Shown here one piece after another: positions 6,701 to 25,567 of a stretch of DNA of 33,988 nucleotides. This DNA is from Anaerolineae bacterium (GTDB lineage Bacteria > Chloroflexota > Anaerolineae > Aggregatilineales > Phototrophicaceae): assembly GCA_030950085.1 (NCBI GenBank), contig JAUZRW010000123.1, positions 1 to 33,988 on the forward strand, read 5' to 3'. A model generated the notes under the pieces. It had not been told where the DNA came from. It worked only from the letters and a program-made list of their open reading frames with translations, and did not search any database. The position numbers and the translations under genes are program-made. The stretch's first letter is position 1; every line of letters starts with the position of its first letter.

Positions 6701-9700
6701 TTCAGCGATTGGTTGAGCCAAGGATGCCAACTATCCCGAATTAAAGCCTCCAACCCTTACCCAGGTTTCTTAACGGCAGAAGAAACTCGGCTACCGGGCG
6801 AGGTAGATAATGCAGTCATGCCCTCCGGTGTTATGGAACAAGACTCGAAGCGCGTTCGCACAACAGACCATAATACGATTACCTATACACCTACCACCAA
6901 TTATCAAGGTATTGATACCTTTAATTATACAATCAGCGATGGAGAGCGCAGCGCCTCGGCACAAGTCACCGTGACCATTGACGACGGTGTTGTAGAATGT
7001 GATGCTTTCAGCTTGATTAGGACGCTTGAGGCAGTGAATGAGGACCCAGATATTGATACTGTCGTATTGAGTCCAGATTGTAATTACAATTTGACTGCTG
7101 TCCACAATACCACGAATGGCAATAACGGACTGCCATCTATCACAACACCAGTAATCATTAATGGCAACGGCGCGACAATTCGACGCGATGCGGCTGCACC
7201 AGATTTCCGCATATTCCATATAGCATCCACTGGCGATTTGACACTGAATAATGTGACGATTAGTGGTGGCTCAGTTGTAGCAACTCTTGGAGAAGGCGGC
7301 GGTGGTGCAGTCCTTAATCTCGGCATACTACAAATCACCAATGTCACCTTACGAGATAATCAGGCAAGTGTAGGTGGTGCGATTCGTAATGGTTTGACTA
7401 ATAACAGTGGGTCAGTCACGATTAATGCCAGCGTGCTAGAGAACAATACTGCCGCACAAAATGGCGGGGCGCTTGCTTCCTTTGGCGGAACAGTAAATAT
7501 CTCCGAAACAACTATTGCACAAAATAGCGCGAGTAACAGTGGTGGCGGCTACTACGCTGTCGCAACGGGTGGCGAAATCACACGCAGCACATTCTCGTCT
7601 AATACAGCGAACAGTGGCGCAGGTATCTACACGGCTAATCCGAATGCTCTCTTCCTGGAAAACAGCACACTTTCCACCAATAACGGAAGCGGCTTCTACA
7701 TCGCAGACGGTGGCAGCGCGAATCTCGTTCATGTGACCATCGCCAATAACACCCTTGGTTTTGATGGTAGCGGTGGTTCTGTTAGCTTGGCGAATTCACT
7801 GCTAATTGACAATAGCGCGGACTGTGGAACATCAATTACACCACTTACGCTTGTTAGCTTCACAGCCGTTAGCAGCCTTGCAACTCAGAATGAATGTGCG
7901 ACTTATGGCTTTACTGTTGTCATTCCTGAGTTGATTGAAATTCAGCCTTTGATACTCAGTGCTGGCTTGACGGCAACACATGGTTTGCCAGACCAACTCC
8001 GTATCAATCCTGATTTATCGAGTGCGGCAATTGACGCTGGAGATGCTACATTCTGTACACTCACTGATCAACGGGGTATTGAGCGCCTCGCTAATGCCTG
8101 TGATGTTGGTGCTTATGAACGTGTCGAATTCGCCCTACCAGAAATTGGTACAAGTGGTGGCGGTTTGGCACTTGTCCGCCCCGATGACGCTTCAGCAGAC
8201 TTTGTACGTTTTGGCAATGTCACATTCTCTGACCCGAATGGTGGCGATTTCACGAGTGGCACAGTGTCATTACCATTAGACAATGGTCGAAGCATCGGGC
8301 GTGACCCTATCAATGGCGATGCCGATAGTCGCCTCGACTGGTTAACACAATCTCTGACACTAGGGGGGCAAAATGTGGTCAAACTGGTCGTGAACGAAAT
8401 TTTCACTGGTTCAGTCGATGCCATTGAGATTTATAACCCGTCTATCCATTTCGTGGATGCCAGTGGTTGGGAAGTTGTCATTTATGATGCAGGCGGTAAC
8501 TTAGTATTAACCCACACATTTAGTGATAACTATCTAATATTGCCGTCAACTTTTGTGGTTCTCTACGAAGGCGATCTACCAGTAGGGACAACACCTGCTG
8601 CAAACGAAATTTATCTGGGACAAGACATCCCATGGCCAACCAGTGGCGCACAGGGCGCGGTGGAAATTACCAATGGTGTTAGCGGAGTCGATTTCATGCG
8701 CTTTGGCGATAATGCCGATAGCACTGGTGACATCACTACTTTCGCACTACAAGATGTGCAACCGACTCGCGGTTCGGAATGGCTACAACCCAGTCCACTT
8801 TCACCCCTACCCAATCAGTCGCTTGGACGCGATGACCGTAGCACGGATACAGACAGAGGGCGCGATTGGATTCCGCAAATCTCAACATTGGGTAGGCGCA
8901 ATGCAGCCGAAGCGATAACCATCAATGATGAGTGGATGAATGCGATTGTGATACCGTTTGTCCCATTCCGCGACTCACGCTCCATCCAAACTGCTGCCGT
9001 CTCTGATGATGAGCCATTGTTGCCTCCAGAATGTGGTGTGGATATTACGCATACCGTTTGGTATAGCTATACACCACAAGATACAGGTAACACGACCTTC
9101 CAGACCGATGGGTCAAACTTCAATACCATCCTCACAGTTTGGGAACGAATCGGTAGTAGTTTCACCCTTGTCGCTTGTGACAATGATAGTGGTGAGGGCA
9201 GTCGGTCACGCCTGACGGTTCAAACACAAAGCAATCGCACCTATTACATCATGATTGGCAGTACCTTAGGTACAACAGGTCGATTGGTCTTTTCGGTACA
9301 ACCACCCGAAAATGATGATTTCGATAACGCCATTGATATTGCAACGCTACCCTTCTCTGACTCACAAATAACAATAGCCGCTAGTTCTGCTGCCGATGAC
9401 CCACTACCTGAATGTGGTATTTTGACCGGGCGTTCAGTCTGGTACTCTTACACAGCACAGACAAGTAATCGTTTGCATCTGTTTACACTAGATTCAAATT
9501 ACGATACGGTTATTGCAGTCTATACGAAGGATAGAGGCAATCTTCTACCCGTAGCATGTTCTAATAATTCAACAATTGACAGTACTAGCGACCTTGTATT
9601 CGAGCCAATGATTGGTGAGACATATACAGTCATGGTAGCTGGTAACGCTAAGAGTGGGGGCAACCTCATCCTGCAAGCGGAGCTTATTATTCCGCCGCCC

Positions 9701-11179: not shown

Positions 11180-14100
11180 TTGGCGGCGCATTCGGCGAAA
11201 CGGGTACACTGAACTTACAAGTAAATATTACCAATGCACCGGAAAATGACGAGCTTGTATCGCCATTTGCAATCAATATTCAACCGAACAGCAACATTCA
11301 AGACACATCTGGCGCGACTCGCGGCGCTAGTGACCCACAGGTTTGTGGTTTAGATGCTGGGCATACTGTCTGGTATCGCTACACACCCACACAGAATAGT
11401 ATCTTACTACTGTCATTTGATAGCAGTGATTATCAGACAGCTATTGGTGTCTACACAGGTACACCCACTAGCTTAGAAGAAACCTTGTGCGGTGTGGGGC
11501 AAGATATCACAATAGAAGCCAGCGCAGGCACATCTTACCTTATCATGGTGGGGAGTGTAGCTGGCAACGGCAGACAATTAAACATTCAAGCAGAAGATGT
11601 TCTTGTTCCTGCTAATAACTTGCAAAGTCAACCAATTGTCATCAATACTATTCCATTTGTTCCCAATACGCCCTACCAGAACATCCAAGATACACGCGGA
11701 GCAACTTCTGTAGGCGACCCCGTTCCAACTTGTGCATCGGGTGTCAGCGTTGGCAAGTCTGTCTGGTATCAATATACAGCAGCAGCGACAGATGGATTGT
11801 TACGCTTCAATACCAGCCTCTCGGACTATAATACTGTGCTTGCTATCTACCGTGTCGAGGGTGCAACGCTAATTGAAGTCACTTGTGATACACCCGGTAA
11901 TGTGACGTTGGCAGCCGAAGGTGGCGCAACCTACCTCATCATGGTAGGTGGAGTCAATAATGCGAGCGGCAACCTTGTCCTCCAAGCTGACCAGATTCCG
12001 CGCCCACCCCATGATGACTTTGAATTAGCGCAACTGGTTTCCAACTTACCGTTCCAGCACAATGTTGATACGAGGGGTGCCAGCGACCCACTTGGAGACC
12101 CATCATCATGTCAGGTTAGTTCCGGTAAATCAGTATGGTATCGCTACGACAGCTTTGGCAATGGAACACTGAATATTACAAGCAGTGGTTATGCAGGTGT
12201 TGTCTCAGTGTATACAGGCGAATATGAGAACCTGACTGCGGTAGCATGTGGAAATGCGAATGCGGAAGTAACGGTCATCCCATTGCAGACTTACTACATT
12301 CTGATTACTGATGCAAGCAATATCGGTGGGGCATTGTCTATCAGCATCAGTGGCGATATTCAAGTCCCAGCGCCCGCTATGTCGATGTTATTGGAAGCGA
12401 ATGTTTCAAGTGTCGATGAACCGGGCGCTTCTGTCATGTTTACAGCAACCGTCACCAGTGATAGCATTTTCGAGACAATCAATCTGACGAGTATCAGCGA
12501 CGATACACTTGGTAATCTCGGAATCGCGTGTGGCTTGCCTGTCAGTCTCGCACCGGGCGCAAGCACAATCTGTAACTTCTCGGATACGATTAACGGACAA
12601 GCGTTTGCCTCAGTGACAAACACCGTTACAGCAAGTAGCACGACGAATACGGGTGCTACACTCAATGCCGAATCATCTGTGACACTGACAGTCACCGATA
12701 GACCATCATCATTACAGGTTACGAAAACACCGGATGTACTGGAAATTCTCGCACCCGGCGGCATCGTGGGCTTCACTGTGACTATAGAAAACACCAGCGC
12801 AGTTGATGATGTGACAATTAACAATGTCACAGATTCTATCTTTGGCGATATCACCTCAAGTTGTACCCCGACGATACCCACCACACTCGCGCCAAGTGAG
12901 GTGATAGTCTGCGAGTTTGAGGGTAATGTAAGTGGTGCAGGCGGCACAATTCATATCAATACGATATTTGTCATCGGCATTGATGACGATCAAATTCTTG
13001 TCGAGGCTGATGACACCGCTCAAGTGCAAATCCAGTGCAACCTATCGCAAGCAAGCAATGATTTGGAAGCCATTCTAGACGCACCCTATAATACGACAAC
13101 GATAAGTAATAGTACCGAAGGTTGTGCCTACGACGTAGGTATCGCATCTTATCGTCGAGTTAGAATCAGAGGTGGTCACAATCTTTGGGAATTACACGAT
13201 TTCACGACAAGCTATTTGTCACCTGATAGTAACGCCACTCTGTCGGTGGAACTGCCGCAGTGCAATTCAGTCTCAGAAATTACGCTGAATTTTGGTCCAA
13301 ATGAAGCAGATTGGCTGCCCATAATTGGTGATTGGGATGGCGATAATATCGATGACCTTGGACTCTATCGTGATGGTCAATGGATACTGCGTGATACGAC
13401 GTTGACAGATACAGTCGTGTCCTTCGGAGAAGCGGGTTGGCTACCCATAGTTGGTGATTGGGATGGCGATAATGTCGATGACCTTGGACTCTATCGTGAC
13501 GATATATGGCAATTATGGAACGCTGGCAATGTGACAATCTTGACTTCTGCAACAGGTTTGTCAAATGCGCTACCCGTAGCGGCGGATTGGAACAATGATG
13601 GCTTAGACATGCCGGCTTTGTATGCTAATGGTCAGTGGGTACTCTTCCATGTCTTAGCTAGTCTGGTGAATGGAACACCTATTGCATTTGGTCCCACTGA
13701 TGTAGGTTGGTTGCCTCTTGTCGGTGATTGGAACGCAAATACAACAGAAAGTATCGGGCTATTCAATAACGGTTTATGGCGAATGCGCGATACCCTCAGT
13801 GATGGGCGTAGCGACATCGGATTCAATTTTGGTCTTGCGGATAGTGCTTGGTTGCCAGTTGCTGGTTTTAATACAACCCTCAATGACTTAGCAGCACTGG
13901 ATAATGGGAATGGTGTAACAACATTGCCCGACACTGTGACACCGGAAGCAACAATGGTGGTCACTGAACCACCTGAAATCACACCGGAAGCAACAGCAGT
14001 GGTCACTGAACCGCCCGAAATCACTCCCGAAGTGACATCGGATGTGACTGCTACTCAGGAGTCTACACAGGAAGTGATACTGGAAGCAACACTGAACGTC

Positions 14101-14508
14101 ACGGAACTATCACCAGTGACACAAGAGCCTGTTGCCACTCAGGAAGTGACACCAGAAGTGATACCGGAATCTGTCATTACCGTAGAAGTAACACCAGAAC
14201 CTGTCGCTACCGTAGAAGTGATACCGGAATCTGTTATCACTGTAGAACCTATTGCTACTGTGGAAACTGTAGTCACAGTCGTTACTGAGGAATCACCAGT
14301 CGTATTACCACCGCCTGTCGTGATTTGCCATACAACTGGCAATCTTGATGACCCAGCTAACTGGATTATCCTCACCCTGCCCCCTTCAGCACTCGATAAC
14401 CATTTTGATGAAAATCTGAATCCACGTCAGGGGCATGATGGTGATTTCATAATTGATGCTTCTCGTCCGATTGGTCTGTGTGAACCACCTACAGCTTCAG
14501 GTGGATAG
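11176..14508 (+). CDS. 3' part of split giant surface protein: PPC domains, Ig-like repeats, VCBS/FG-GAP-like repeats
   Basis: This 1110-residue ORF begins in a different frame from the preceding gene at an ATGA overlap, with no Shine-Dalgarno sequence and no signal peptide. Its first residues, MIGGAFGETGTLNL, match the last strands of a PPC domain (compare TYYIMIGS and TYTVMVAG upstream), so the ATG is probably an internal methionine. PPC domains follow at about 21-142, 144-277 and 278-398. Two Ig-like repeats with LAPG and TVTD motifs lie at 400-618. Asp-rich GDWDGDN repeats of VCBS/FG-GAP type, likely Ca-binding, lie at 699-915. A Thr/Pro/Glu/Val linker (919-1045) leads to a C-terminal domain with ICHTTGN and two further conserved-looking features (HFDEN, GLC). 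As a separate protein it would be cytoplasmic, which is implausible for these domains. It is best read as the continuation of the upstream gene after a deletion or assembly error. Confidence 0.8.
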   Translation: MIGGAFGETGTLNLQVNITNAPENDELVSPFAINIQPNSNIQDTSGATRGASDPQVCGLDAGHTVWYRYTPTQNSILLLSFDSSDYQTAIGVYTGTPTSLEETLCGVGQDITIEASAGTSYLIMVGSVAGNGRQLNIQAEDVLVPANNLQSQPIVINTIPFVPNTPYQNIQDTRGATSVGDPVPTCASGVSVGKSVWYQYTAAATDGLLRFNTSLSDYNTVLAIYRVEGATLIEVTCDTPGNVTLAAEGGATYLIMVGGVNNASGNLVLQADQIPRPPHDDFELAQLVSNLPFQHNVDTRGASDPLGDPSSCQVSSGKSVWYRYDSFGNGTLNITSSGYAGVVSVYTGEYENLTAVACGNANAEVTVIPLQTYYILITDASNIGGALSISISGDIQVPAPAMSMLLEANVSSVDEPGASVMFTATVTSDSIFETINLTSISDDTLGNLGIACGLPVSLAPGASTICNFSDTINGQAFASVTNTVTASSTTNTGATLNAESSVTLTVTDRPSSLQVTKTPDVLEILAPGGIVGFTVTIENTSAVDDVTINNVTDSIFGDITSSCTPTIPTTLAPSEVIVCEFEGNVSGAGGTIHINTIFVIGIDDDQILVEADDTAQVQIQCNLSQASNDLEAILDAPYNTTTISNSTEGCAYDVGIASYRRVRIRGGHNLWELHDFTTSYLSPDSNATLSVELPQCNSVSEITLNFGPNEADWLPIIGDWDGDNIDDLGLYRDGQWILRDTTLTDTVVSFGEAGWLPIVGDWDGDNVDDLGLYRDDIWQLWNAGNVTILTSATGLSNALPVAADWNNDGLDMPALYANGQWVLFHVLASLVNGTPIAFGPTDVGWLPLVGDWNANTTESIGLFNNGLWRMRDTLSDGRSDIGFNFGLADSAWLPVAGFNTTLNDLAALDNGNGVTTLPDTVTPEATMVVTEPPEITPEATAVVTEPPEITPEVTSDVTATQESTQEVILEATLNVTELSPVTQEPVATQEVTPEVIPESVITVEVTPEPVATVEVIPESVITVEPIATVETVVTVVTEESPVVLPPPVVICHTTGNLDDPANWIILTLPPSALDNHFDENLNPRQGHDGDFIIDASRPIGLCEPPTASGG
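13311..13503 (+). repeat. Near-identical direct repeat within VCBS/FG-GAP-like region
   Basis: About 65 bases starting at 13311 recur at 13437 (126-base period, 42 codons) with only about four differences over the aligned stretch. Each copy encodes WLP-I-GDWDGDN-DDLGLYRD. The Asp-rich loop resembles calcium-binding loops of VCBS/FG-GAP repeats. Further diverged copies at about 13700 (WLPLVGDWN) and 13850 (WLPVAG) show an older repeat series with one recent duplication. Confidence 0.85.
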
Positions 14509-14662: not shown

Positions 14663-15667
14663 ATGGCTCGTCGTCCCACAATTATTGATGTCGCACGTTT
14701 AGCAAGAGTATCAAAAGCGACTGTTGCGCGTGTGGTTAATGGACAACACGATATTGTTAGAGATGCGACTCGCGAGCGTGTAGAACAAGCCATTGAACAA
14801 TTAGGCTATGAACGGAATGCAGTCGCAAGTAGTTTACGCACTGACCAAACATTCGTCATTGCGCTTTCCATACCCGACATTTCAAATCCATTTTGGCCCG
14901 ACGTAACACGAGGGGTTCAAGATACACTTGAGGAAAATGATTACGCGGTTGTCACTCTCAATACAGATTGGAAAGTGGAGCGCGAAAGAAATTATCTTAA
15001 GATGATTCGGCGTAACCGTTTTGATGGTTTGATTATTAATCCTAACCGTGTTTCAACGAACGAATTGGCTGACCTCAAGATACCTGTGGTTATTCTCGGT
15101 TCAGGCGAGGCATATCCCGATTATGATTCAGTAGGCAGTGCCACAGAGCAAGGCGCTCAAGATGCCTTCAAACACTTATACGAACTCGGTCATCGGCGCA
15201 TTGGTCTCATTACAGGTCAATCAGCACGAAAGAAAGTCCAAACACGTCGAGATAGTTATTTGAAATTTTTATTGATGAATCAAATACCTTTAGACGAAAC
15301 ACTGATTATAGAAAGTGAATTTTCTCGTGAGGCAGGTTACGAAGCAATGCGACAATTTCTAACATTAGCCGTCCCCCCTTCTGCGGTTGTGGCAGCAAAT
15401 GATATTCTTGCAATTGGTGTCCTAAAAGCCGCACAAGAGATGCACTATCGCGTGCCAGAGGATATTTCAATCATCGGTATAGATGATATTTATGCCGCAG
15501 CAACGACATCGCCTGCCTTAACAACAGTAGCCAAATTGAAGTATGAGACAGGCGTTCAAGCGGCTAAATTCTTACTTGAGCGCCTTACAAGCCAAGCGCC
15601 TCAAGCAGCCCGTCATATTCAATTACCATGCACACTTGTCGTTCGAGGTTCAACAACTTCGGTTTAA
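14663..15667 (+). CDS. LacI-family transcriptional regulator
   Basis: This 334-residue protein has the usual LacI-family length. The N-terminal helix-turn-helix (residues 6-28) includes TIIDVARLARVSKATVARVV, followed by a hinge-helix region near AVASSLRT (residues 53-60). The rest is a periplasmic-binding-protein-like sensor domain with typical SNPFW, GHRRIGLITG and ISIIGIDD segments. It probably represses itself and the downstream ADP-ribosylglycohydrolase/ABC/citrate-lyase-like cluster, because identical palindromes sit before its own start and directly after its stop. The effector is likely a sugar or glycoside from the imported compound; it cannot be named from sequence. The ATG at 14663 gives the canonical MARRPTIIDVA start; an earlier ATG at 14653 is out of frame. 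Confidence 0.93.
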   Translation: MARRPTIIDVARLARVSKATVARVVNGQHDIVRDATRERVEQAIEQLGYERNAVASSLRTDQTFVIALSIPDISNPFWPDVTRGVQDTLEENDYAVVTLNTDWKVERERNYLKMIRRNRFDGLIINPNRVSTNELADLKIPVVILGSGEAYPDYDSVGSATEQGAQDAFKHLYELGHRRIGLITGQSARKKVQTRRDSYLKFLLMNQIPLDETLIIESEFSREAGYEAMRQFLTLAVPPSAVVAANDILAIGVLKAAQEMHYRVPEDISIIGIDDIYAAATTSPALTTVAKLKYETGVQAAKFLLERLTSQAPQAARHIQLPCTLVVRGSTTSV

Positions 15668-15697: not shown

Positions 15698-15717
15698 ATC
15701 ATTTTTTGGTGGAAATT

Positions 15718-16710
15718 GTGATTAATAAAAACATAAAGCAGAAAAAAGAGATTTTACTTGACCGTGCGCGAGGATGCCTATTGGGTTTAGCGGTTGGGGA
15801 CGCATTCGGCGATATTGGGCGCAATGATGCTTATCGACAACGGTATGGCATCGTGACCAATCTTTACGACGGGGCGAAGAGTACCGATGATACAGAATTT
15901 GCGATTCTCACAGCACAAACACTGATTGATTGCCAAGGGGATTTGACAACCGAACATCTTGTTGCTTCATGGAAAAAGTACATTCTCGATGAAGGTGGGA
16001 TGTTTGAGCGCGGTGGGAAACCCCTCTATGGCGCTGTGGCTAATCTCGAACGTGGCATGTTACCCCCTCTTTCGGGTCATGATAATGTGCAAAACAAAGA
16101 CGATGGTGCTGCTATGCGGATTGCTCCTATTGGCATTATTTGTGTAGGAGACCCCAATCGTGCCTCTGAAATGGCAAAAATCGAGTCGGAAATTAGTCAT
16201 GCGGAAGATGGTATTTGGGCAGCACAAGCTGTCGCTGCCAGTATTGCCGTTGCGCTAGTTGATGCAAGCATCACAGAAATTGTAAATACAGGGCTAGAAC
16301 AAATCCCAGAGGATAGTTGGCTAGGTCGCAAAATGGCACTGGCAATGAAAATCTGTCATGACAACCCAACGATTGAAGCAGCTTGGGAAGCTCTTCATAC
16401 CCAATTTTGGACACCCGCACATTCTATGGCGGCTGAGGCTATCCCACAAGCCTATGCCATCTTTAGATTAACAGGCGGAGATTTTCATAAGGGGATGTTC
16501 TGGGCGGGTAATTTTGGGCGCGATGCCGATACCATTAGTGCCGTTGTCGGTGCGCTGTCGGGTGCTATTCATGGCGAAGGTGTCATTCCTGCTGATTGGA
16601 TTGAGAAAGTATCGCATCCTGCGGGCGTTTGCCTAAAATTTTCGGCGCAACTGGATATTAGAGATATCGCAGACCAATTGGTTGACTTGGTTGAAATAAT
16701 GAAAAAATAG
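15718..16710 (+). CDS. ADP-ribosylglycohydrolase-family protein (single domain)
   Basis: This 330-residue, all-helical DraG/ARH-type protein opens with RARGCLLGLAVGDAFGD, the family signature. Metal-binding motifs are STDDTE (D57, D58) and, near the C-terminus, GRDADT (D269, D271), consistent with a binuclear Mg/Mn site. Family members hydrolyse N- or O-glycosidic bonds to ribose, classically removing ADP-ribose from proteins, but many bacterial members sit in catabolic clusters with unknown substrates. Here it is the first gene after the second operator and precedes a sugar-type ABC cassette, so a catabolic role on an imported riboside-like compound is inferred. The GTG at 15718 is chosen because GGTGGA precedes it; in-frame TTG 15706 and GTG 15709 are alternatives. 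The stop codon touches the left 90-bp inverted repeat. Confidence 0.85.
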   Translation: MINKNIKQKKEILLDRARGCLLGLAVGDAFGDIGRNDAYRQRYGIVTNLYDGAKSTDDTEFAILTAQTLIDCQGDLTTEHLVASWKKYILDEGGMFERGGKPLYGAVANLERGMLPPLSGHDNVQNKDDGAAMRIAPIGIICVGDPNRASEMAKIESEISHAEDGIWAAQAVAASIAVALVDASITEIVNTGLEQIPEDSWLGRKMALAMKICHDNPTIEAAWEALHTQFWTPAHSMAAEAIPQAYAIFRLTGGDFHKGMFWAGNFGRDADTISAVVGALSGAIHGEGVIPADWIEKVSHPAGVCLKFSAQLDIRDIADQLVDLVEIMKK

Positions 16711-16799
16711 CCCCTTTCGGGGTTTTACCGCGCCTCACATAAAATTGCAAAGTGAGACAGGCGTTAGAGCATCATCGTAGATAGTTTGTTAAACAAGAA
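16710..16799 (+). repeat. Left copy of 90-bp inverted repeat flanking ABC cassette
   Basis: These 90 bases are the reverse complement of 20124-20213 with three mismatches (one in CACAT/CACAC, two in ATCATCG/ATCACTG). The element contains a CCCC-TTTC-GGGG hairpin at its outer end. A bulged hairpin follows, formed by CGCCTCAC (16731-16738) and GTGAGACAGGCG (16752-16763). A short palindrome, TTGTTAAACAA (16786-16796), lies at its inner end. It begins at the last base of the preceding gene's stop codon and ends 16 bases before the permease start. There is no coding capacity and no transposase nearby. Confidence 0.95.
16711..16726 (+). terminator. Terminator in left inverted repeat
   Basis: CCCC TTTC GGGG (16711-16722) forms a compact hairpin followed by TTTT, directly after the stop codon of the ADP-ribosylglycohydrolase-family gene. 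The preceding A-run could make it act in both directions. It may lower or block read-through into the ABC genes, which would then need their own promoter or anti-termination. Confidence 0.6.
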
Positions 16800-16815
16800 T
16801 AGTCGGATTTTATTG

Positions 16816-17799
16816 ATGACAGCAAAAATAGAACAACACTCAAATACTTGGCGTGGACTGCCCCTCATACGCAACTTTACATCTTTAACGTCAAGTGAAC
16901 AACGCGAAGCCTTGTTTGGTTACTTATTCATCTCACCTTGGATGATTGGTTTTTTGGTGTTTTTTCTCGGACCCATTATCGCTTCTTTCGTCCTTAGTTT
17001 CTCACGTTGGGATATTGTCGGCGAAATACAATGGGTCGGTTTCGCCAATTATGAACGCATTTTTACCAATGACCCCTCTTTCCGTAAGTCCGTGCAAGTC
17101 ACACTCACCTATGCCGTTTTCTATTTGCCACTGGAAGTCATTTTTGGTATTGGCTTGGCAGTCGTCATGAACCAAAAGGTAAAAGCTATCGGCATCTTCC
17201 GAACACTTTTCTATATGCCCTATGTTGTCCCGAAAGTGGCAGGAGCTTTAGTCTGGGTTTGGATGTTGAGTGCGCGTTATGGGGCTGTCAACACCCTGCT
17301 TGGATGGGGTGGCATAGAGGGACCAAGATGGCTTGAGAGTCCGCGTTATGTTTTACCAAGCATCATTATTATGAGCCTGTGGGGTGTCGGAGGCAGTGCC
17401 GTTATCTATCTTGCTGGGCTTCAAAATATTCCAGAACAACTCTATGAAGCGGCGACAATTGATGGTGCAAATGCTAGACAGCGTTTTCGATATGTGACTT
17501 TGCCAATGCTCACGCCGACCATCTTTTTTCAAATCGTATTGGGGTTAATTGGTGTGTTCCAGACCTTTACACCAGCCTTCATTGCCGCAGGACAAGCCGG
17601 TGGGCCCTTGCAATCGGGTTTGTTTTATATGCTCTACATTTACAACAAAGCCTTTGGAGCTAGTGGCGCAGGGTCTCGAATGGGCTATGCGTCGGCACTC
17701 TCATGGATTATCACGGTTTTCATCCTGATTATAACTGTTCTTATCTTCCGTAGCTCCAAATACTGGGTTCATTACGAAGCGGAACGGCAAGGGAGATAA
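16816..17799 (+). CDS. Carbohydrate ABC transporter permease, MalF/UgpA type
   Basis: This 327-residue inner-membrane permease has about six hydrophobic segments. The first follows a cytoplasmic stretch of about 35 residues and begins near LFGYLFISPWMIGF. The EAA loop that docks on the ATPase is EAATIDGANARQRF (from about residue 211), with typical LPMLTP after it. Together with the next two genes it forms a sugar-type (CUT1) uptake system; no ATPase gene is present. The ATG at 16816 is preferred. An in-frame TTG at 16786 would start inside the inverted repeat and add 10 residues of no family likeness. The ribosome-binding site is weak. Confidence 0.9.
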   Translation: MTAKIEQHSNTWRGLPLIRNFTSLTSSEQREALFGYLFISPWMIGFLVFFLGPIIASFVLSFSRWDIVGEIQWVGFANYERIFTNDPSFRKSVQVTLTYAVFYLPLEVIFGIGLAVVMNQKVKAIGIFRTLFYMPYVVPKVAGALVWVWMLSARYGAVNTLLGWGGIEGPRWLESPRYVLPSIIIMSLWGVGGSAVIYLAGLQNIPEQLYEAATIDGANARQRFRYVTLPMLTPTIFFQIVLGLIGVFQTFTPAFIAAGQAGGPLQSGLFYMLYIYNKAFGASGAGSRMGYASALSWIITVFILIITVLIFRSSKYWVHYEAERQGR

Positions 17800-17805
17800 A
17801 TCAAT

Positions 17806-18684
17806 ATGGCACAATTAACAACAACTGTTGCTCATCAAAATCAAAATAAAGTCTTGGCTGCTCTGACTTGGCTACGGTCAAAAAGTATGTATGTCCTTCT
17901 GATTGTTTTGGCAGCACTCTTTCTTATTCCACTTTATTGGATGCTTGCAACTTCGTTAAAAACGCCCGCACAAACATTCGCACTGCCGCCCGAATGGATT
18001 CCTAATCCAGTTGCGACTGAGAATTATACTCAAGTATTTGAGGAAGTTCCTTTTGGTCGTTTCATTTTGAATTCATTCTTCCTTGTAATCATGAATGTTA
18101 TCGGGCAATTGGTCTCTGTTACTTTAGTGGCTTATGGTTTCGCCCGCTTACGCTTTCCGGGACGCAGTATTCTCTTCTTGCTGATGCTTGCGACACTCAT
18201 GATTCCTTATCAAGTGACACTTGTGCCACGCTTTATTTTGTTTGCCAAGATTGGTTGGGTGAATACCTATCTACCACTCATTGTCCCTGCATTTACTGGT
18301 AGCCCGTTTCTAATTTTTCTCGTTCGCCAATACATGATGAGTATCCCTTTCGACCTTGACGAAGCGGCTTATATTGATGGTGCTAATCAATTTGATGTAT
18401 TTTGGCGAATTATCTTGCCCTTAGCGCGTCCAGCCTTAGTTTTAGTCGTCGTCTTTACATTCATCGACGTTTGGAACGATTTTTTGCAACCCCTCATCTA
18501 TCTCAATGACCCAAACCTGTTTACCGTATCACTAGGGTTAAGTTTCTTCCAAGGACAACGAGAAACAGCATGGAATCTCTTGATGGCGGCGGCGCTGATG
18601 GCAATGACACCTCCCCTATTGCTATTCTTTTTTGCCCAGAAACAGCTTATCGGAGGCATCTCAGTTGAGGGGTTGAAGGGATAA
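17806..18684 (+). CDS. Carbohydrate ABC transporter permease, MalG/UgpE type
   Basis: This 292-residue inner-membrane permease is the partner of the preceding gene, starting only 6 bases after its stop; GGGAG at the end of that gene can serve as ribosome-binding site. MalG-type features include the first membrane segment ending IPLYWMLATSLKTP, the LPPEW periplasmic segment and the EAA loop DEAAYIDGANQFDVF (from residue 185) followed by LPLARPAL. The C-terminal FFFAQKQLIGGISVEGLKG is typical of MalG-like permeases. The specific sugar cannot be inferred. Confidence 0.92.
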   Translation: MAQLTTTVAHQNQNKVLAALTWLRSKSMYVLLIVLAALFLIPLYWMLATSLKTPAQTFALPPEWIPNPVATENYTQVFEEVPFGRFILNSFFLVIMNVIGQLVSVTLVAYGFARLRFPGRSILFLLMLATLMIPYQVTLVPRFILFAKIGWVNTYLPLIVPAFTGSPFLIFLVRQYMMSIPFDLDEAAYIDGANQFDVFWRIILPLARPALVLVVVFTFIDVWNDFLQPLIYLNDPNLFTVSLGLSFFQGQRETAWNLLMAAALMAMTPPLLLFFFAQKQLIGGISVEGLKG

Positions 18685-18687
18685 GTC

Positions 18688-18726
18688 ATGACAACAATCT
18701 TGAGAAAGGAGCAATTTATGGAATGA
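18688..18726 (+). other. Possible 12-codon leader ORF between permease and binding-protein gene
   Basis: An ATG at 18688 opens a 12-codon frame ending TGA at 18724-18726. Within it, a strong AAAGGAG (18706-18712) precedes a second in-frame ATG that has only one more codon before the stop. A good Shine-Dalgarno sequence before an almost empty frame is odd. It could be a leader peptide, a remnant of a lost gene or chance. The real binding-protein start has its own GAGGAAA further on. Confidence 0.25.
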
Positions 18727-18785
18727 GGGTTTCCGTAAGACTGCAAAATTATCAAACTTTTAGTCAATAATGAGGAAAATTTGTC

Positions 18786-20078
18786 ATGAATAAACGTACT
18801 TTACTAACTTTGATGCTCATCATTGGCATTCTCATTCCTGTGTTATCAATCCAAGCACAAGATGAGACTGTTACCATTACATGGTGGGGAACAGAACGTG
18901 GACGTGATACCGCCGCAACCCGTGAGGTTCATTTCCAATTGGCGCGTGCCTTTGAAGAAGCTAATCCGGGCATTAACGTTGCGGTTTCGCTCTTCCCCAG
19001 CCGTGGATTTAACACCCGTGTCGCTACAGCGATTGCAGCAGGTCAAGGTCCCGATGTTTGGTATCATACCCTTCCCGCCGATGCCGCCGACCAAGGTTTT
19101 TTGTTAGATTTAACACCCCTTATGGAACGCGATGGCATCAATCCTGAAGAACTGTGGTTCTCTGGTGCAGAACAACGTATGAAATACGAGGGTCGCTATT
19201 ACGGCGCTCCACGCGATGCAGTTTCAGCATTGGTATTTTACAATATAGACATGTTTGAAGCGGCTGGTGTCGATATCCCACAAGCCGGCTGGACAGTTGA
19301 TGACTTCCGTTCTATCGCTAATCAACTAACTGACCGTGATAATGACCTCTATGGTGTCGGCGCGATTGTCGGCGGCGATGGTTGCACGCTCTGGTCTTCT
19401 TTCTCCTTCAATCTCGGTGCAGATACCATCAGCCCAGATGGTCGCCAAGTTGTCGGTTATCTGGATACACCAGAAGCCGCGAATGCTTTCCGCTATTGCC
19501 TAGAACTCGTGACCGAAGACCAAGTAACCGCACCATCCGAACTGCAAGACCAGTTTGGCGAATTAGTGTTCTTGTCCGGTCAAGTTGCGATGCAATCTGG
19601 CTCAAACTGGGAAATTCCAGCCGTGCAGGAACAAGCCGATTTTGCTTGGGGCGTGATTGAATCACCGCGCTTCGACACAGATTCAGAAGGCATCCCTTGG
19701 ACAGATAGCATTTCCTACTCCATCTGGGAAGGCAGCAGCAATCAAGAGGCAGCATGGGAATTAGTCAAATGGTTGAGTGGCGCTGATGCACAACGCATGG
19801 CAGCAGAAGCTAATGTTTGGTTCCCCAATAGCCCTGCAATCTGGGAAGAATTGAGTTGGGATGCAGATCCTATTCTCGGTATCTCTTATAGTGAATTGCT
19901 CAAAGACACCGTGATACCCAACTATCTGCGCTCGCGTTTCTTCTTTGATTGCGCCTATTCAGTCCACAGCAACGCCCGTGTTCGCTGGGTAGAAAATGGT
20001 GAACGCGATATAGACTCCATATTAGCGGAAGAAACCGCTAATGCACAATCTTGTCTGGATGATAATTACGGCGTTTAA
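18786..20078 (+). CDS. ABC transporter extracellular sugar-binding protein
   Basis: This 430-residue solute-binding protein (SBP_bac_1 family) is the substrate-capturing part of the ABC cassette. It starts with a signal peptide (MNKRTLLTLMLIIGILIPVLS), probably cut after IQA; there is no lipobox cysteine. Family features include TITWWG at the mature N-terminus, AFEEANPGINV, AAGQGPDVWY and WELVKWLSG. GAGGAAA lies at good distance before the ATG. It is the last gene inside the inverted-repeat-bracketed segment and is followed at once by a strong terminator. A polysaccharide- or glycoside-derived ligand is likely; its identity is unknown. Confidence 0.93.
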   Translation: MNKRTLLTLMLIIGILIPVLSIQAQDETVTITWWGTERGRDTAATREVHFQLARAFEEANPGINVAVSLFPSRGFNTRVATAIAAGQGPDVWYHTLPADAADQGFLLDLTPLMERDGINPEELWFSGAEQRMKYEGRYYGAPRDAVSALVFYNIDMFEAAGVDIPQAGWTVDDFRSIANQLTDRDNDLYGVGAIVGGDGCTLWSSFSFNLGADTISPDGRQVVGYLDTPEAANAFRYCLELVTEDQVTAPSELQDQFGELVFLSGQVAMQSGSNWEIPAVQEQADFAWGVIESPRFDTDSEGIPWTDSISYSIWEGSSNQEAAWELVKWLSGADAQRMAAEANVWFPNSPAIWEELSWDADPILGISYSELLKDTVIPNYLRSRFFFDCAYSVHSNARVRWVENGERDIDSILAEETANAQSCLDDNYGV

Positions 20079-20088
20079 TTGACAATCT

Positions 20089-20132
20089 GGGGTTTCATCA
20101 CTTCTTAAGCGGTGAGACCCCGTTTCTTGTTT
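20089..20132 (+). terminator. Intrinsic terminator after binding-protein gene
   Basis: GGGGTTTCATC (20089-20099) pairs over 11 positions (two G-T wobbles) with GGTGAGACCCC (20111-20121), followed by GTTTCTTGTTT. It lies 10 bases after the stop codon. Its T-tail overlaps the first bases of the right inverted repeat, so the repeat border coincides with the end of the transcript. Confidence 0.8.
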
Positions 20133-20213
20133 AACAAACTATCTACAGTGATGCTCTAACGCCTGTCTCACTTTGCAATTTTGTGTGAGGCGCGGTAAAA
20201 CCCCGAAAGGGGC
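20124..20213 (-). repeat. Right copy of 90-bp inverted repeat flanking ABC cassette
   Basis: This is the reverse complement of 16710-16799, with 87 of 90 positions identical. Its outer end carries the CCCC-GAAA-GGGG hairpin and its inner end overlaps the T-tail of the binding-protein terminator. The next gene starts 29 bases beyond. In this orientation TTGCAA (20173-20178) and TAAAAC (20196-20201), 17 bases apart, could make a weak promoter toward the next gene; this is speculative. Confidence 0.95.
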
Positions 20214-20217
20214 TTTT
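20201..20217 (+). terminator. GNRA-loop terminator in right inverted repeat
   Basis: CCCC GAAA GGGG (20201-20212) followed by CTTTTT is a classic short intrinsic terminator with a stable GAAA tetraloop. Flanking AAAA and TTTT could lengthen the stem. It is the second terminator in a row between the binding-protein gene and the next gene, so the downstream genes probably do not rely on simple read-through. Confidence 0.7.
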
Positions 20218-20242
20218 TAATGTTAAGCGTAAAGGGGAAATA

Positions 20243-22330
20243 ATGCTGCCTGTTGACTATGAAAATCGAGTGTATGCAGCGTGGCTCGGTAAATGTATTG
20301 GTGTACGATTTGGCGCACCGCTTGAAAATTGGACATACGAAGAAATCCGCGACAATCTCGGCGACCTCCAATGGTATGTGCGCGAAGATAGAGGGAAAAT
20401 CTTTAAGCCCGATGATGATACGTCTGTCCCACTGATACAACTCCGTGCGATACAAGATTATGATAGTCGGTCTCATTTGACAGCCCAAGAATGTGCCGAA
20501 ACGCTGCTGAATTATATCGGCGACCATCATGGGACGTTTTGGTGGGGAGGCTATGGTATATCTAGCGAAGAAACAGCCTATATGAACCTCATCAGTGGTA
20601 TTCCTGCCCCTCTCTCTGGTTCTATCGCAATGAACGGCGAAATTCTACCTGAGCAAATTGGAGGACAAATTTTTAGTGATATTTGGGGGTTAGTTGCCCC
20701 TAATCAACCGGCGCTTGCTGCGGATTTAGCAGGCACAATGGCGAGTGTTTCTCATGACCGCAACGGCATCTATGGTGGGCGTTTTATTGCCGCGCTAACT
20801 GCCGCCGCCTTCTCAGAATCCGACCCCCGAAAATTAATTGAAATCGGATTAGAGCATATCCCAAGTGACAGTCAATATACAGAAGTTGTCCGCGCAATGC
20901 TCGATTTCCATGCCCAACATCCCGAAGATTGGCACGCCGCATTTGCACATCTCAAAGCACACTATGGCGACCATCTCTATCCCGGCTTGGTACACATTAT
21001 TCCCAATGCAGGGGTTGTTATTTTGGGTTTGCTTTATGGCGAAGGTGATTTTTCACAAACTTTACGAATCACGAATATGGCAGGTTGGGATACGGATTGT
21101 AATGTCGGCAATGTAGGCGCAATCATGGGCGCGGCTGTTGGCTTAGAGGCAATTGATTATCAGTGGCGCGAACCGATGAACGACCTTGTTGTACTGGCAA
21201 GCCTCATCGGAACACGCAATATTATGACGATTCCGCAATGTGCTGACCTCATCTGCCATTTAGGACGCAAATTGAGTGGAGAAGCGCAGAGTGAAACTAA
21301 GGCACGCTATCACTTTGGCTATTCAGGGTCAACTAATAACTTCATTGCAACAGGCAAAAAAGGTCGCCCGATTCATATTCAGCAAGCAATCGTTGAGGGT
21401 GAACCATCGCTCAAAGTATCCGTTCGGAAATTGAACAAAAAAGGCGAAATACGAGTTGCAACACGCACCTACTATCGCCCCTCAGAATTGCTCAGTAATT
21501 ATTACGGCGCGGCATTTACGCCTCGCATCTATCCCGAACAAACAGTCACAGCAAAGTTGTATTTGCCAACCGATGCCCCACAAGATATTAAAGCCGCTAT
21601 TTTTGTCTATGACGATAATCATGCACAATCATATCAAGCACAAGCAATAACATTGACACCCAACACATGGCACAACTTGACCTACACCATTCCGCCACTT
21701 GACGATGCTTGTTTGTCACAAGTTGGTATCGTCTTACGCAATGTGAGCGCCAATTGGACAGTTGGTTCTTTTGCTATTTCAGAACTCGATTGGGACAATA
21801 CACCACATTACAGCACAACGTTTGCCAAAGAACGTCCTGAAACGGGTGCTATCAGTCAATGGACATATTTACGCGGTTATTGGCGACTTGAGAATGGTGC
21901 TTATCATGGTAGCGGCATCGGCTATAGCGAAAGTTATTCTGGTGACATTGACTGGACAGATTACACCGTATCTAGCGAAATCACACCGCTTATGGGCGAT
22001 TATCACCTTATCAATGTGCGTGTACAAGGTGCTTTACGCAGTTATGCTTTCGGATTAGCACCCGATAATACGATTGCCCTCTACAAAAAAAATACGTCCT
22101 ACCAGCTAATGCAAAAAACCGACTTTACATGGCAACATGGACAGTCTTATCGCTTAAAAATCTGTGCAAAGGGCGATGAATTTGTAGCGACGATTGAGGG
22201 CGATGAAGAAACGAAAACTATCCATTGGCGTGATACAAATGCCCCCTATCGCAATGGACAAATCGGGCTTTCAATCTGGAATAATGGGCATACCGCCTTT
22301 CATTGGCTCAAAGTTGTGCCAGAGGAATAA
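20243..22330 (+). CDS. ADP-ribosylglycohydrolase-family protein fused to C-terminal LamG-like domain
   Basis: This 695-residue protein combines an ADP-ribosylglycohydrolase-like domain (about 1-345) with a beta-sandwich region. The N-terminus AAWLGKCIGVRFGAPLE and PDDDTSVPL (D57-D59) form the first metal motif; GWDTDCNVGN (D283, D285, N287) forms the second. The C-terminal part has a carbohydrate-binding-like segment (about 370-525), then a concanavalin/DUF1080-like domain (about 530-695) with DWTDYTVSSEI and NGQIGLSIWNNG. No signal peptide is visible, so it is probably cytoplasmic. The reaction is likely hydrolysis of a ribosyl or related glycosidic bond, with the extra domain binding the substrate; this is inference. 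AAAGGGGAAATA gives a good ribosome-binding site. It is only distantly similar to the single-domain family member upstream, so the two are probably not a recent duplication. Confidence 0.85.
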   Translation: MLPVDYENRVYAAWLGKCIGVRFGAPLENWTYEEIRDNLGDLQWYVREDRGKIFKPDDDTSVPLIQLRAIQDYDSRSHLTAQECAETLLNYIGDHHGTFWWGGYGISSEETAYMNLISGIPAPLSGSIAMNGEILPEQIGGQIFSDIWGLVAPNQPALAADLAGTMASVSHDRNGIYGGRFIAALTAAAFSESDPRKLIEIGLEHIPSDSQYTEVVRAMLDFHAQHPEDWHAAFAHLKAHYGDHLYPGLVHIIPNAGVVILGLLYGEGDFSQTLRITNMAGWDTDCNVGNVGAIMGAAVGLEAIDYQWREPMNDLVVLASLIGTRNIMTIPQCADLICHLGRKLSGEAQSETKARYHFGYSGSTNNFIATGKKGRPIHIQQAIVEGEPSLKVSVRKLNKKGEIRVATRTYYRPSELLSNYYGAAFTPRIYPEQTVTAKLYLPTDAPQDIKAAIFVYDDNHAQSYQAQAITLTPNTWHNLTYTIPPLDDACLSQVGIVLRNVSANWTVGSFAISELDWDNTPHYSTTFAKERPETGAISQWTYLRGYWRLENGAYHGSGIGYSESYSGDIDWTDYTVSSEITPLMGDYHLINVRVQGALRSYAFGLAPDNTIALYKKNTSYQLMQKTDFTWQHGQSYRLKICAKGDEFVATIEGDEETKTIHWRDTNAPYRNGQIGLSIWNNGHTAFHWLKVVPEE

Positions 22331-22335
22331 GAAAT

Positions 22336-23883
22336 ATGGTCAAGTTACACGAATATCAAGGCAAGCAAATTCTAGCAAAATACGGGATTTCTCTTCCCCA
22401 AAGCATCCTTGCAACATCACCAAATGAAGCGCGGCAATTTGCTGAAAAAATCGGTGCTGTCGTTGTTAAAGCACAAGTTTGGACAACCAGTCGTGCGGCA
22501 CAGAATCTGATTCACTTTGCAGCAACAAGCGATGAAGCAGCACAGGCAGCAAACACCTTAATCGGTCAAAGAGTCGGTAATTTCATTGTTGAACATGTCT
22601 TGGTTGAAGAACAAGTCGCTATTGAGCAAGAATGGTATCTCGGACTCATCATTGATGACCAAGCCCGTGTGCCTGTATTGCTATTTAGTGCTGTTGGTGG
22701 AAGCGGTATCGAAGAGATTCTGACAGCAAATCCAAACCAAGTGATTCGCCATCAGATTAATATCCGCGAAGGCTTGCAAGATTTTGAAGCGCGTGAGATT
22801 TGCCGTCGCGCAGGAATCGGCGGACGCACAATGTTGAAACTGAGCCAAGTGATTCGGCGTTTTTATGATGCGACGCGGTATTATGAGGCACGGTCAGCCG
22901 AAATCAATCCGCTTGTTCTCACAAAAGACGGGCAGATTATGGCGCTTGATGCCCGTTTCACGATTGATGATTATGCGCTATTTCGTCATCCTGATTTGGA
23001 CATTGAAGTGGCACGAGAACTTGACCGTCCGCCTACAAAACTCGAAAAAATAGCGTGGCAAGTCGAGAAAGATGATTATCGTGGGACATTTTACTTCATC
23101 CAGATGATGAGTGACTTTGAAAAAGGTCAAAATGTGGTCGGTTTTCATGGCGCAGGCGGTGGCGGCAGTATGATGAACATGGATGCCCTCTTAGCGCGTG
23201 GATTCCAAATAGCAAATTTTGTCGATACCAGTGGCAATCCCCCAGCGAGCAAAGTTTATCGTGCCGCACGAATCATTCTCAGCCAAGCCAATATAGACGG
23301 CTATTATGCAGGCGGTAGTGGTGTTGCCAGTCAAGAACAATTTCATTCGGCGCGTGGTTTAGTCAAGGCATTTATGGATACCCAACTCAACATTCCGGCA
23401 GTAATTCGTATTGGTGGCAATGCTGAGGAAGAAGCAATCGACATTTTACAGCGTGCGAAAGGGACTTTCCCTGCACCGCTAGAGGCTTATGGGCGCGATG
23501 ATTCGCCGGATATGTGCGCCGAACGTTTGCAAGCACTCATTGAAACTTATGAGCCACTTCAAGACCCTCCTGTGCGCGAAAATCCCCAAGCACAAGACCC
23601 TTATCAGTTCGAGACCGTCACGGGCGGCACAGTCACCTTTGACCATGCTCTTTGCCGAAACTGCGAGAGCAAAATTTGTATCGAAACTTGTGTACCGCAA
23701 ATATTATCGCTAGACGAAGGCGTTCCTGTTCTCAATATTGGACACGACGAGGCAAAACGTGGCGCATGTACCGAATGTCTTGCTTGCGAGGTGGAATGTT
23801 ATTTTTTAGGCAATCGGGGCGGTATTATTCATTTGCCCATACAAGGTTTAAGCAGCGAGAAAAATCATGCCGATATTGATTAA
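22336..23883 (+). CDS. ATP-grasp CoA-ligase beta subunit (ATP-citrate-lyase/SucC-like) with ferredoxin-like C-terminus
   Basis: This 515-residue protein starts like SucC/AclB (KLHEYQGKQILAKYGI). An ATP-grasp region includes the conserved EINPLVLTKDGQIMALDAR, followed by a CoA-ligase domain with FHGAGGGGS and NFVDTSGNPP. The C-terminal part is unusual: it carries C440-x2-C443-x4-C448-x3-C452 and C478-x2-C481-x2-C484-x3-C488, the spacing of a two-[4Fe-4S] ferredoxin-like domain, not part of standard succinyl-CoA synthetase or ATP-citrate lyase beta chains. With the next gene, overlapping by 17 bases, it should form an ATP-dependent acyl-CoA ligase/lyase. AGAGGAATAAGAAAT precedes the ATG, 5 bases after the previous stop. 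A longer start (TTG 22303) would overlap the previous gene and lacks support. Confidence 0.85.
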   Translation: MVKLHEYQGKQILAKYGISLPQSILATSPNEARQFAEKIGAVVVKAQVWTTSRAAQNLIHFAATSDEAAQAANTLIGQRVGNFIVEHVLVEEQVAIEQEWYLGLIIDDQARVPVLLFSAVGGSGIEEILTANPNQVIRHQINIREGLQDFEAREICRRAGIGGRTMLKLSQVIRRFYDATRYYEARSAEINPLVLTKDGQIMALDARFTIDDYALFRHPDLDIEVARELDRPPTKLEKIAWQVEKDDYRGTFYFIQMMSDFEKGQNVVGFHGAGGGGSMMNMDALLARGFQIANFVDTSGNPPASKVYRAARIILSQANIDGYYAGGSGVASQEQFHSARGLVKAFMDTQLNIPAVIRIGGNAEEEAIDILQRAKGTFPAPLEAYGRDDSPDMCAERLQALIETYEPLQDPPVRENPQAQDPYQFETVTGGTVTFDHALCRNCESKICIETCVPQILSLDEGVPVLNIGHDEAKRGACTECLACEVECYFLGNRGGIIHLPIQGLSSEKNHADID

Positions 23884-25567
23884 TAAAACCAAGCGCGTTC
23901 TCATACAAGGCATTACAGGGCGTGAGGGAGTCGCTCGCACAAAATTGATGAGCAACTATGGGACACAAGTTGTTGCCGGAGTTACGCCGGGCAAAGGCGG
24001 ACAAACTGTATTGGGTATCCCTGTATTTGATACAGTTCAAGAGGCTTGTGAAACGGTTGGGAAAATTGATATTAGTGTTCTGTTTGTCCCTGCCCCGTTG
24101 GTCTTAGGCGCAGCATTAGAAGCATTTGCAGCCGATATCAAGTTGCTCGTCATCGTTCCAGACCGTGTTCCCCTTTATGATGTCTTAGAAATTGCGGCAG
24201 TTGCAAAAAAGCATGGCGCTCAATTTGTAGGACCCAACACTTTAGGTATTCTCAGCCCCGATGCCGGTGTATTAGGCATGATGGGCGGACGGGCGGAAAG
24301 CGCCAGCGAATGGCTATTTCCGGGTCCAGTCGGCATCACGAGTCGTAGTGGGGGTATCACAACCAGCATCGCTTACTATATCGCGCAATCCGGCATCGGA
24401 TTATCGACTTTGGCACATGTTGGCGGTGATTCCGTTGTCGGCATGACTCATGCGGATATGTTGCGCTTATTCCAAAAAGATGAACAGACCAAACTCGTTG
24501 TGTTATTCGGCGAAATTGGTACATCACAAGAAGAAGAAGCGGCGCATTGTGTCGCATCCGGTGAATTTACGAAACCACTCATTGCTTACATCGGGGGCAA
24601 AGCAGCAAAAGAAGGTACACGATTCAGTCATGCCGGAGCAATTATTGAAGGCAATAAAGGCACTCATGAAGGCAAAGTTCGCCGTCTGCGCGAAGTGGGT
24701 GCAGTCGTCGCCGAATCATTTTCGGATATTCCACAACTTGTCGCTGAAACATTGCAATCGCTAAAATCTGAATCCGCAGCGCCAACCTCAAAATCTGTTA
24801 AAAATGCCTCATGGTATACCGCCATCACTGAGATACAGCCGAACCTCATTCGACTGCGCGGTCATCGCATTGAGAATCTGATAGGTGACATTTCATTTTC
24901 TCAAGCAATTTATCTCGCTCTCACAGGCAAACTCCCCGACAAATCAATCGGTACGATTCTTGATGCAATTTTGGTATCGTCTATCGACCACGGCGCAACT
25001 CCCCCATCGACATTAGCTGCACGCACGGCAGCCAGTACCGGGGCTGCAATAAACGCCGCGTTATCAGCCGGACTGCTTTCGATTAACAAACATCATGGGG
25101 GCGCAATCGAAGCCTGTATGCGCCTTATTCAAACTGCGCTGGACAATCAACAGGCAGAAAAATGTTCTGTAGAAGATGCTGCGATGAGTCTTGTGCGTGA
25201 ATATCGTCAGTCAAAACGTCGTTTAGCGGGCTTTGGGCATCGGATTCATAGTGCTGACCCACGTAGCGAACGCTTGCTAAAACTAGCGTCCCAAGAAAAA
25301 CTTGCTGCTGACGGTATAACGATGCTTCAGGCGTTGCGAGATGCGCTATCAGAACAAACGGAGCACGATTTTCCGATAAATGTCGATGGCGCAATAGCAG
25401 CAATCTTACTCGACATCGGCATTGAAGCCCCATTAGGCAATACATTTTTCATGATGGCACGTTTACCGGGTTTAATTGCCCATATCCGCGAAGAACAGAC
25501 TCGTGAACGTCCGATGCGTGTTATTCATCCGCGTAATCATGGATATGATGGTGAACGGCATGAGTAA
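23867..25567 (+). CDS. ATP-citrate-lyase alpha-like protein: SucD domain fused to citrate-synthase-like domain
   Basis: This 566-residue fusion has the domain order of ATP-citrate lyase alpha. Residues 1-300 match SucD, with VLIQGITGREG near the start, a CoA-binding GVTPGKGG, GITSRSGG and FSHAGA with the likely phospho-histidine H255. Residues about 320-560 form a citrate-synthase-type lyase domain keeping HHGGA (H409/H410), GFGHRIH (H458) and NVDGA (D507), the usual catalytic triad positions. The expected reaction is ATP- and CoA-dependent cleavage of citrate or a related 3-hydroxy acid to acetyl-CoA and an oxoacid. In a sugar-uptake cluster a different substrate is possible. It overlaps the preceding gene by 17 bases and so is translationally coupled. 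It could serve reductive TCA carbon flow, but the location argues for a catabolic role. Confidence 0.85.
   Translation: MPILINKTKRVLIQGITGREGVARTKLMSNYGTQVVAGVTPGKGGQTVLGIPVFDTVQEACETVGKIDISVLFVPAPLVLGAALEAFAADIKLLVIVPDRVPLYDVLEIAAVAKKHGAQFVGPNTLGILSPDAGVLGMMGGRAESASEWLFPGPVGITSRSGGITTSIAYYIAQSGIGLSTLAHVGGDSVVGMTHADMLRLFQKDEQTKLVVLFGEIGTSQEEEAAHCVASGEFTKPLIAYIGGKAAKEGTRFSHAGAIIEGNKGTHEGKVRRLREVGAVVAESFSDIPQLVAETLQSLKSESAAPTSKSVKNASWYTAITEIQPNLIRLRGHRIENLIGDISFSQAIYLALTGKLPDKSIGTILDAILVSSIDHGATPPSTLAARTAASTGAAINAALSAGLLSINKHHGGAIEACMRLIQTALDNQQAEKCSVEDAAMSLVREYRQSKRRLAGFGHRIHSADPRSERLLKLASQEKLAADGITMLQALRDALSEQTEHDFPINVDGAIAAILLDIGIEAPLGNTFFMMARLPGLIAHIREEQTRERPMRVIHPRNHGYDGERHE

Follow-up and report, generated by a model that had tools for sequence, protein, structure and literature searches.

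Inverted repeats framing an ABC-transporter operon in an Anaerolineae bacterium are very probably two insertions of an 87-bp dispersed element

PATE-like elements, which are non-autonomous derivatives of IS200/IS605 insertion sequences, have neither terminal inverted repeats nor a target duplication; they insert 3′ of a short conserved target, and their right end resembles that target. REPs are 20–40 bp long (PMC3733652), and RAYTs cut at CT next to them (PMC8266576). IS607 elements also lack terminal inverted repeats and target duplication, display minimal target specificity and have a 2-bp dinucleotide common to their ends and the target (PMC6188088). Here we analysed a stretch of 33,988 nucleotides (the window; contig C28, JAUZRW010000123.1) from the genome of an Anaerolineae bacterium (GCA_030950085.1, 5.09 Mb in 266 contigs), in which a pair of inverted repeats frames three ABC-transporter genes. 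The two repeats are very probably independent insertions of an 87-bp, non-coding, dispersed mobile element; copy number, sharp and conserved ends, empty sites, absence from relatives and the ancestral operon are the observations on the element.

A repeat search of the window revealed inverted arms at 16705–16799 and 20124–20218 (95 nt, 96% complementary, 3324 nt apart), and the family alignment found the two copies to differ at 3 of 89 positions, confirming the near-identical inverted repeats reported by the first-pass annotation. With the AG at the hairpin end included, the element extends over 16709–16797 (copy 1) and 20126–20214 (copy 2). Pfam also bore out the described gene content, placing two permeases, both binding-protein-dependent, and a solute-binding protein between the repeats and ADP-ribosylglycohydrolase genes outside both (Table 1). 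The start given for permease 1 in the ORF list, a TTG at 16786, lies inside the element. A 29-nt segment within the LacI gene (15533–15561) matches the element middle at 79%, probably by chance since the element ends are missing there. Further upstream, an ORF of 3482 codons (731–11179) contains a degenerate tandem array with a 15-bp period (3719–4107), and the ORF that follows it (11176–14508) has short repeated segments too.

Table 1. Positions of the operon genes and of the two element copies in the window, with the basis of each assignment
Feature	Position	Strand	Basis
LacI-family regulator, first conserved-operon gene	14663..15667	+	Pfam, synteny
ADP-ribosylglycohydrolase family gene 1 (ADPRGH1)	15706..16710	+	Pfam, synteny
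Hairpin-end junction AG of copy 1, target side	16709..16710	+	sequence; empty-site logic
Element copy 1, 87-bp unit CCCC...CAAG	16711..16797	+	copies and empty sites aligned
Copy 1 tip hairpin CCCC-TTTC-GGGG	16711..16722	+	sole conserved pairing in RNAalifold
Copy 1 right terminus TTTGTTAAACAAG	16785..16797	+	positions 77–89 conserved at 93–99%, 107 copies
ABC permease 1, likely ATG start	16816..17799	+	sequence, ORF list, Pfam, synteny
ABC permease 2	17806..18684	+	Pfam, synteny
Extracellular solute-binding protein	18786..20078	+	Pfam, relative's protein, synteny
Host hairpin GGGGTTTCATC...GGTGAGACCCC 3′ of binding-protein gene	20089..20121	+	direct sequence reading
Element copy 2, 87-bp unit, inverted	20126..20212	-	repeat search, profile and covariance-model matches
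Copy 2 tip hairpin (CCCC-GAAA-GGGG on + strand, then CTTTTT)	20201..20212	-	sequence; RNAalifold
Hairpin-end junction AG of copy 2 (CT on + strand), target side	20213..20214	-	sequence
ADP-ribosylglycohydrolase family gene 2 (ADPRGH2)	20243..22330	+	Pfam, synteny

Copies were counted in about one third of the genome, including a blind set of 1.604 Mb of contigs picked mostly by number. An own-genome search gave 307 first-look candidates, of which 40 were scored and all 40 matched at 85–100% identity; two more weak partial matches adjoin other copies. With an iterated nhmmer profile, 92 copies were found in the blind set (1.60 Mb), 94 in the blind set plus window (1.64 Mb) and 132 in 1.94 Mb, the last two sets being mostly full length, and extrapolation from the 92 copies gives a genome-wide total of about 290 in 5.09 Mb. 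A covariance model recovered at least 150 copies from the same genome, 150 of 150 scored candidates matching over the whole model length. The same model gave no hit in a further 97 genomes from the family and 153 from the order. Nor was any copy detected by blastn in 399 other genomes of the phylum, the best two candidates per genome being scored. The window had no match to Rfam covariance models at the gathering score, and 16650–16850 had none at E up to 1. The element family is apparently species-restricted. Among the origins offered by the first-pass annotation was a dispersed structured element inserted twice, and this proved right: the searches returned well over 100 copies genome-wide and none in the other genomes searched.

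A full copy typically runs AG-CCCC-TTTC-GGGG-TTTYAYCGCGCCTCACACAAAAT, followed by a variable middle and finally TTTGTTAAACAAG. Among 107 copies, positions 1–37 are mostly conserved at ≥90% and positions 77–89 at 93–99%, and positions 43–76 drift. Alignment of the copies revealed that element similarity ends sharply, flank similarity stopping at both ends; conserved ends with a variable middle are as expected for a non-autonomous element recognised by a transposase. The two ends, AGCCCC... and ...AACAAG, do not form inverted repeats, and RNAalifold identified the CCCC/GGGG tip hairpin as the only conserved pairing in the family. The structures first described within the repeats fared differently. 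The outer hairpin is a genuine family feature, but its stem comprises only four GC pairs and it went unflagged in the terminator scan. The inner bulged hairpin folds in the young consensus and is not conserved, RNAalifold retaining the tip hairpin alone, and the inner palindrome GTTTGTTAAAC is present in the sequence but corresponds to the conserved right terminus of the element.

The likeness of the two window copies had been attributed to a recent event or to conversion. Copy 2 differs from a copy on C153 at 2 positions and from copy 1 at 3, copy 1 is equally close to four other copies as to copy 2, and the window pair resembles copies on other contigs as closely as its members resemble each other. 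Both fall in a young subfamily, members of which are no more distant although they lie on other contigs, and no conversion specific to the pair is needed.

Comparison of the flanks revealed a one-sided target. The left flank reads A-A-W-A, where position −3 is A in 89%, position −2 is A or T and position −1 is A in 90%; the right flank is not conserved. No target duplication of 3–10 bp was found above shuffles in the flank comparison of copies; for k = 2 the match was 0.49 versus 0.40 ± 0.03, the AG at both ends being ambiguous. As empty sites we used unoccupied paralogous versions, in the same genome, of places where copies sit in other repeats, some of them provided by large families such as GTAGAATCTGGAAAAACTTAGAAAAAGATGAACCACAAAG.... 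In the best case, C14:12738 compared with four empty sites (92–94% identity), exactly two nucleotides, AG, stand in the element's place: ATGATA-AG-GAAAAAAG when empty, ATGATA-[AG...CAAG]-GAAGAAAG when occupied. More diverged empty paralogues mostly keep the same two-base spacing, filled by AG, AC, GG or AA. Because empty sites keep just AG, the inserted unit is 87 bp and is placed after AAWAAG; because AG stands at both element ends, it might just as well represent a duplication of 2 bp. Other large families of dispersed repeats were encountered, for example GTAGAATCTGGAAAAACTTAGAAAAAGATGAACCACAAAG... with dozens of copies (L040:10451, L127:7076, L036:10241 and paralogues). At L123:6127–6309 a different repeat, itself containing the GTAG REP, interrupts an element copy after position 72, and therefore repeats nest in each other here.

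At site 1 in the window (a slash marks the junction), the joined flanks read AAAAAATAG/AATAGTC, and the TAG stop of the upstream gene ADPRGH1, formed by T16708 and AG 16709–16710, straddles the target; this stop is native and not a truncation, because the orthologue in G013, a genome from a different genus of the same family, ends within a few codons of it. Joining the flanks at site 2 gives ACCCCGTTT/CTTTTTAATG, which indicates that copy 2 split the T-rich tail of the host hairpin (GTTTCTTTTT once joined). Targeting of hairpins or terminators as a general rule was rejected, since 106 sites were no different overall from control AAWAAG sites; two clear insertions into hairpin loops were seen (C40:7156 and C5:13796).

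Very probably, then, a non-autonomous 87-bp element has spread to about 290 sites in one lineage. Insertion takes place directly 3′ of the short A-rich target AAWAAG and leaves no target duplication besides the ambiguous AG common to the target and the right end. A transposase supplied in trans would probably recognise the conserved left ~37 nt, at the start of which stands the CCCC/GGGG tip hairpin, together with the right ~13 nt, TTTGTTAAACAAG. Most likely the enzyme would belong to the single-strand IS200/IS605 (HUH) type; the chief alternative would be a serine enzyme like that of IS607. An IS200/IS605-like route is favoured because only the left flank is conserved and because CAAG, at the right end, is similar to WAAG in the left target; the position of the hairpin at the tip and the lack of clear strand bias do not support it, and the HUH route is preferred tentatively, at slightly below an even chance. 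Strand bias judged by local GC skew was 37 of 70 copies, or 16 versus 10 where skew exceeded 0.02, neither of them clear, and insertion into the lagging strand thus gains no support.

Candidate mobilisers were sought among the genes of the genome. Y1 transposase matches comprised one RAYT, one decayed fragment and one match in a long frame unlike a transposase. TnpB genes are present on C124, C251, C14 and C250, serine recombinases on C16 and C14, and one IS110 gene on C38; element ends were not found near the RAYT, TnpB, serine recombinase or IS110 genes in the flanks fetched. An IS110-type mobiliser was rejected, as the flanks fetched for the one gene hold no matching ends. Likeness to integron attC (the GTTRRRY-like GTTAAAC) was also dismissed, the element having neither a cassette ORF nor a matching opposite core. 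The IS91-type search returned 0 matches to Y2_Tnp, as did the control search. No circle or tandem junctions (CAAG-CCCC) were found among the matches listed, and single copies occur whose own flank reads AACA. With the genome split over 266 contigs, the assembly may lack multi-copy insertion sequences, and the mobiliser may have been lost in this way.

The alternative that survives best is that the element derives, in miniature form, from an IS607-type transposon moved by a serine recombinase, which we nevertheless consider unlikely. Like IS607 elements (PMC6188088), it combines the lack of terminal inverted repeats and of duplication with what may be a shared dinucleotide, AG standing at both element ends and empty sites reading AG in the best case and AC, GG or AA in diverged paralogues. 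The genome also holds a decayed IS607-like tnpA-tnpB pair at C14:604–2221 (L209, L047), in which a serine recombinase fragment is followed by a TnpB gene broken by a stop codon; a related TnpB is a single open frame on C250. However, the ends of the C14 element do not match those of our element within the flanks fetched, and the one-sided AAWA preference exceeds the bare dinucleotide reported for IS607.

Less probable again is that the element is a REP moved by the RAYT of this genome. There is a single RAYT gene, C29:10789–11343 (L101, minus strand, 184 aa), encoding a Y1 transposase with the HUH motif MPNHFH, and the AG/CT at both element ends recalls the CT beside REPs at which RAYTs cut (PMC8266576). 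However, a classical GTAG REP, TGTAGGGGCGC...GCGCCC, occurs in inverted copies on either side of this RAYT, which was therefore assigned to that other repeat; the pattern GTAGGGGCG...CGCCC has 107 matches in 1.94 Mb. Element copies do not flank the C29 RAYT, and the ends, AGCCCC and AACAAG, are absent from the flanks fetched. Neither GTAG nor CGTC is conserved at the end of the palindrome: GTAG is found in some young copies only, at about positions 69–72 within the variable middle. The element also exceeds the 20–40 bp length of REPs (PMC3733652) and has its conserved hairpin at the very tip.

A host regulatory function, with the repeats acting as mobile intrinsic terminators retained through selection at the 3′ ends of genes, appears equally improbable. 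The hairpin end is directed toward a stop codon in 38 of 61 classifiable copies; of 70 copies, 11 create or lie on the stop codon of a frame that is open for at least 100 codons. No copy lies inside the ORF proxy, a count that is biased and not independent evidence because an insertion would itself end the ORF. Against a regulatory function, convergent gaps hold just 16 of the 61 classifiable copies (26%) versus 157 of 863 gaps overall (18%), the tip hairpin is short and unflagged as a terminator, and no copy occurs in the sampled relatives. A TAA-containing target together with selection against gene disruption explains the stop-codon pattern without regulatory function, and such a role is not needed to explain the arrangement. 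Locally, copy 2, lying in the T-tract of the host hairpin, may add a weak terminator.

G013 carries the order LacI-ADPRGH1-perm1-perm2-SBP-ADPRGH2-ATP-grasp-CoA ligase/citrate synthase, colinear and in the same orientation, at 56–76% identity (62% for the binding protein), and G063 has the same series from LacI to ADPRGH2, with a weaker ADPRGH1 match; the covariance-model search found no element in either genome. Colinearity with the G013 operon shows the transporter genes to be ancestral members that still keep their original orientation; the elements were added at their two borders. In the window, 22303–25567 holds the ATP-grasp gene and a CoA-ligase/citrate-synthase fusion gene, a pair that resembles a split ATP-citrate lyase and is likewise conserved downstream of the operon in G013.

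Two further proposals of the first-pass annotation do not withstand this comparison, and they fail by the refuting condition that the annotation itself had set. Inversion of the segment by recombination between its arms, switching the transporter genes, is very improbable: near-identical arms of ~90 bp, 3.3 kb apart, could in principle recombine, but the assembled orientation is the ancestral one, no recombinase adjoins the arms in the window by Pfam, and in a family of more than 100 copies inverted pairs are commonplace at chance level (22 neighbouring pairs closer than 5 kb among the 92 blind-set copies versus 22.9 expected under random (Poisson) placement, 12 of the 22 inverted). That the repeats border a captured or mobile transporter cassette is scarcely credible: the two inverted copies do enclose exactly the three ABC genes, but relatives carry the same genes in the same order (G013, from a different genus, fully and without the element; G063 largely), and close inverted neighbours are as frequent elsewhere as chance predicts. 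By chance the copies came to lie in two gaps within what is an old operon for sugar transport, and they mark neither a cassette nor an invertible switch.

With this tempting false lead removed, the locus illustrates that large families of small repeats frame operons by chance. About 290 copies of 87 bp, in one species among the genomes searched and with ends fixed nearly to the base, lend themselves well to a search for the transposase behind an orphan miniature element, and the family would help test how small repeats alter gene 3′ ends. The family is new but of a common type, that of small mobile repeats that are not autonomous, and two of its copies happen to lie around an old operon.

Compared with REP/REPIN and RAYT systems, the element is likewise short, extragenic and species-specific in its populations, with hundreds of copies, a hairpin and AG/CT at the junctions, but it is 87 bp long, carries its hairpin at the very tip and does not lie beside a RAYT. 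With MITEs such as RUP, NEMIS and ERIC it shares a length within 70–300 bp, non-coding intergenic dispersal, conserved ends and, presumably, movement in trans; it differs in having neither terminal inverted repeats nor a 3–10 bp target-site duplication. IS607-family ends similarly lack inverted repeats and duplication and have 2 bp common to both ends and the target, as may be the case here, but here the dinucleotide is AG instead of GG, with an extra one-sided AAWA preference and no partner found. PATE-like IS200/IS605 derivatives resemble it in the lack of inverted ends and duplication, in insertion 3′ of a target (conservation being confined to AAWA plus AG on the left, with fitting empty sites) and in a target-like right end; in contrast to subterminal hairpins with guides at both ends, it has one conserved hairpin, at the left tip, with no guide sequence recognised and no transposase with such ends found. 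It seems rather improbable, a little less so than a RAYT-driven REP, that the element represents an undescribed class of miniature mobile element, distinct from REP/RAYT, inverted-repeat MITEs and known IS200/IS605 or IS607 derivatives, whose transposase uses the tip hairpin, an asymmetric AAWAAG target and the shared AG. The element is best read as a REP/MITE-like family, new and restricted to this species, whose movement probably depends on an IS200/IS605-like (HUH) or IS607-like enzyme acting in trans.
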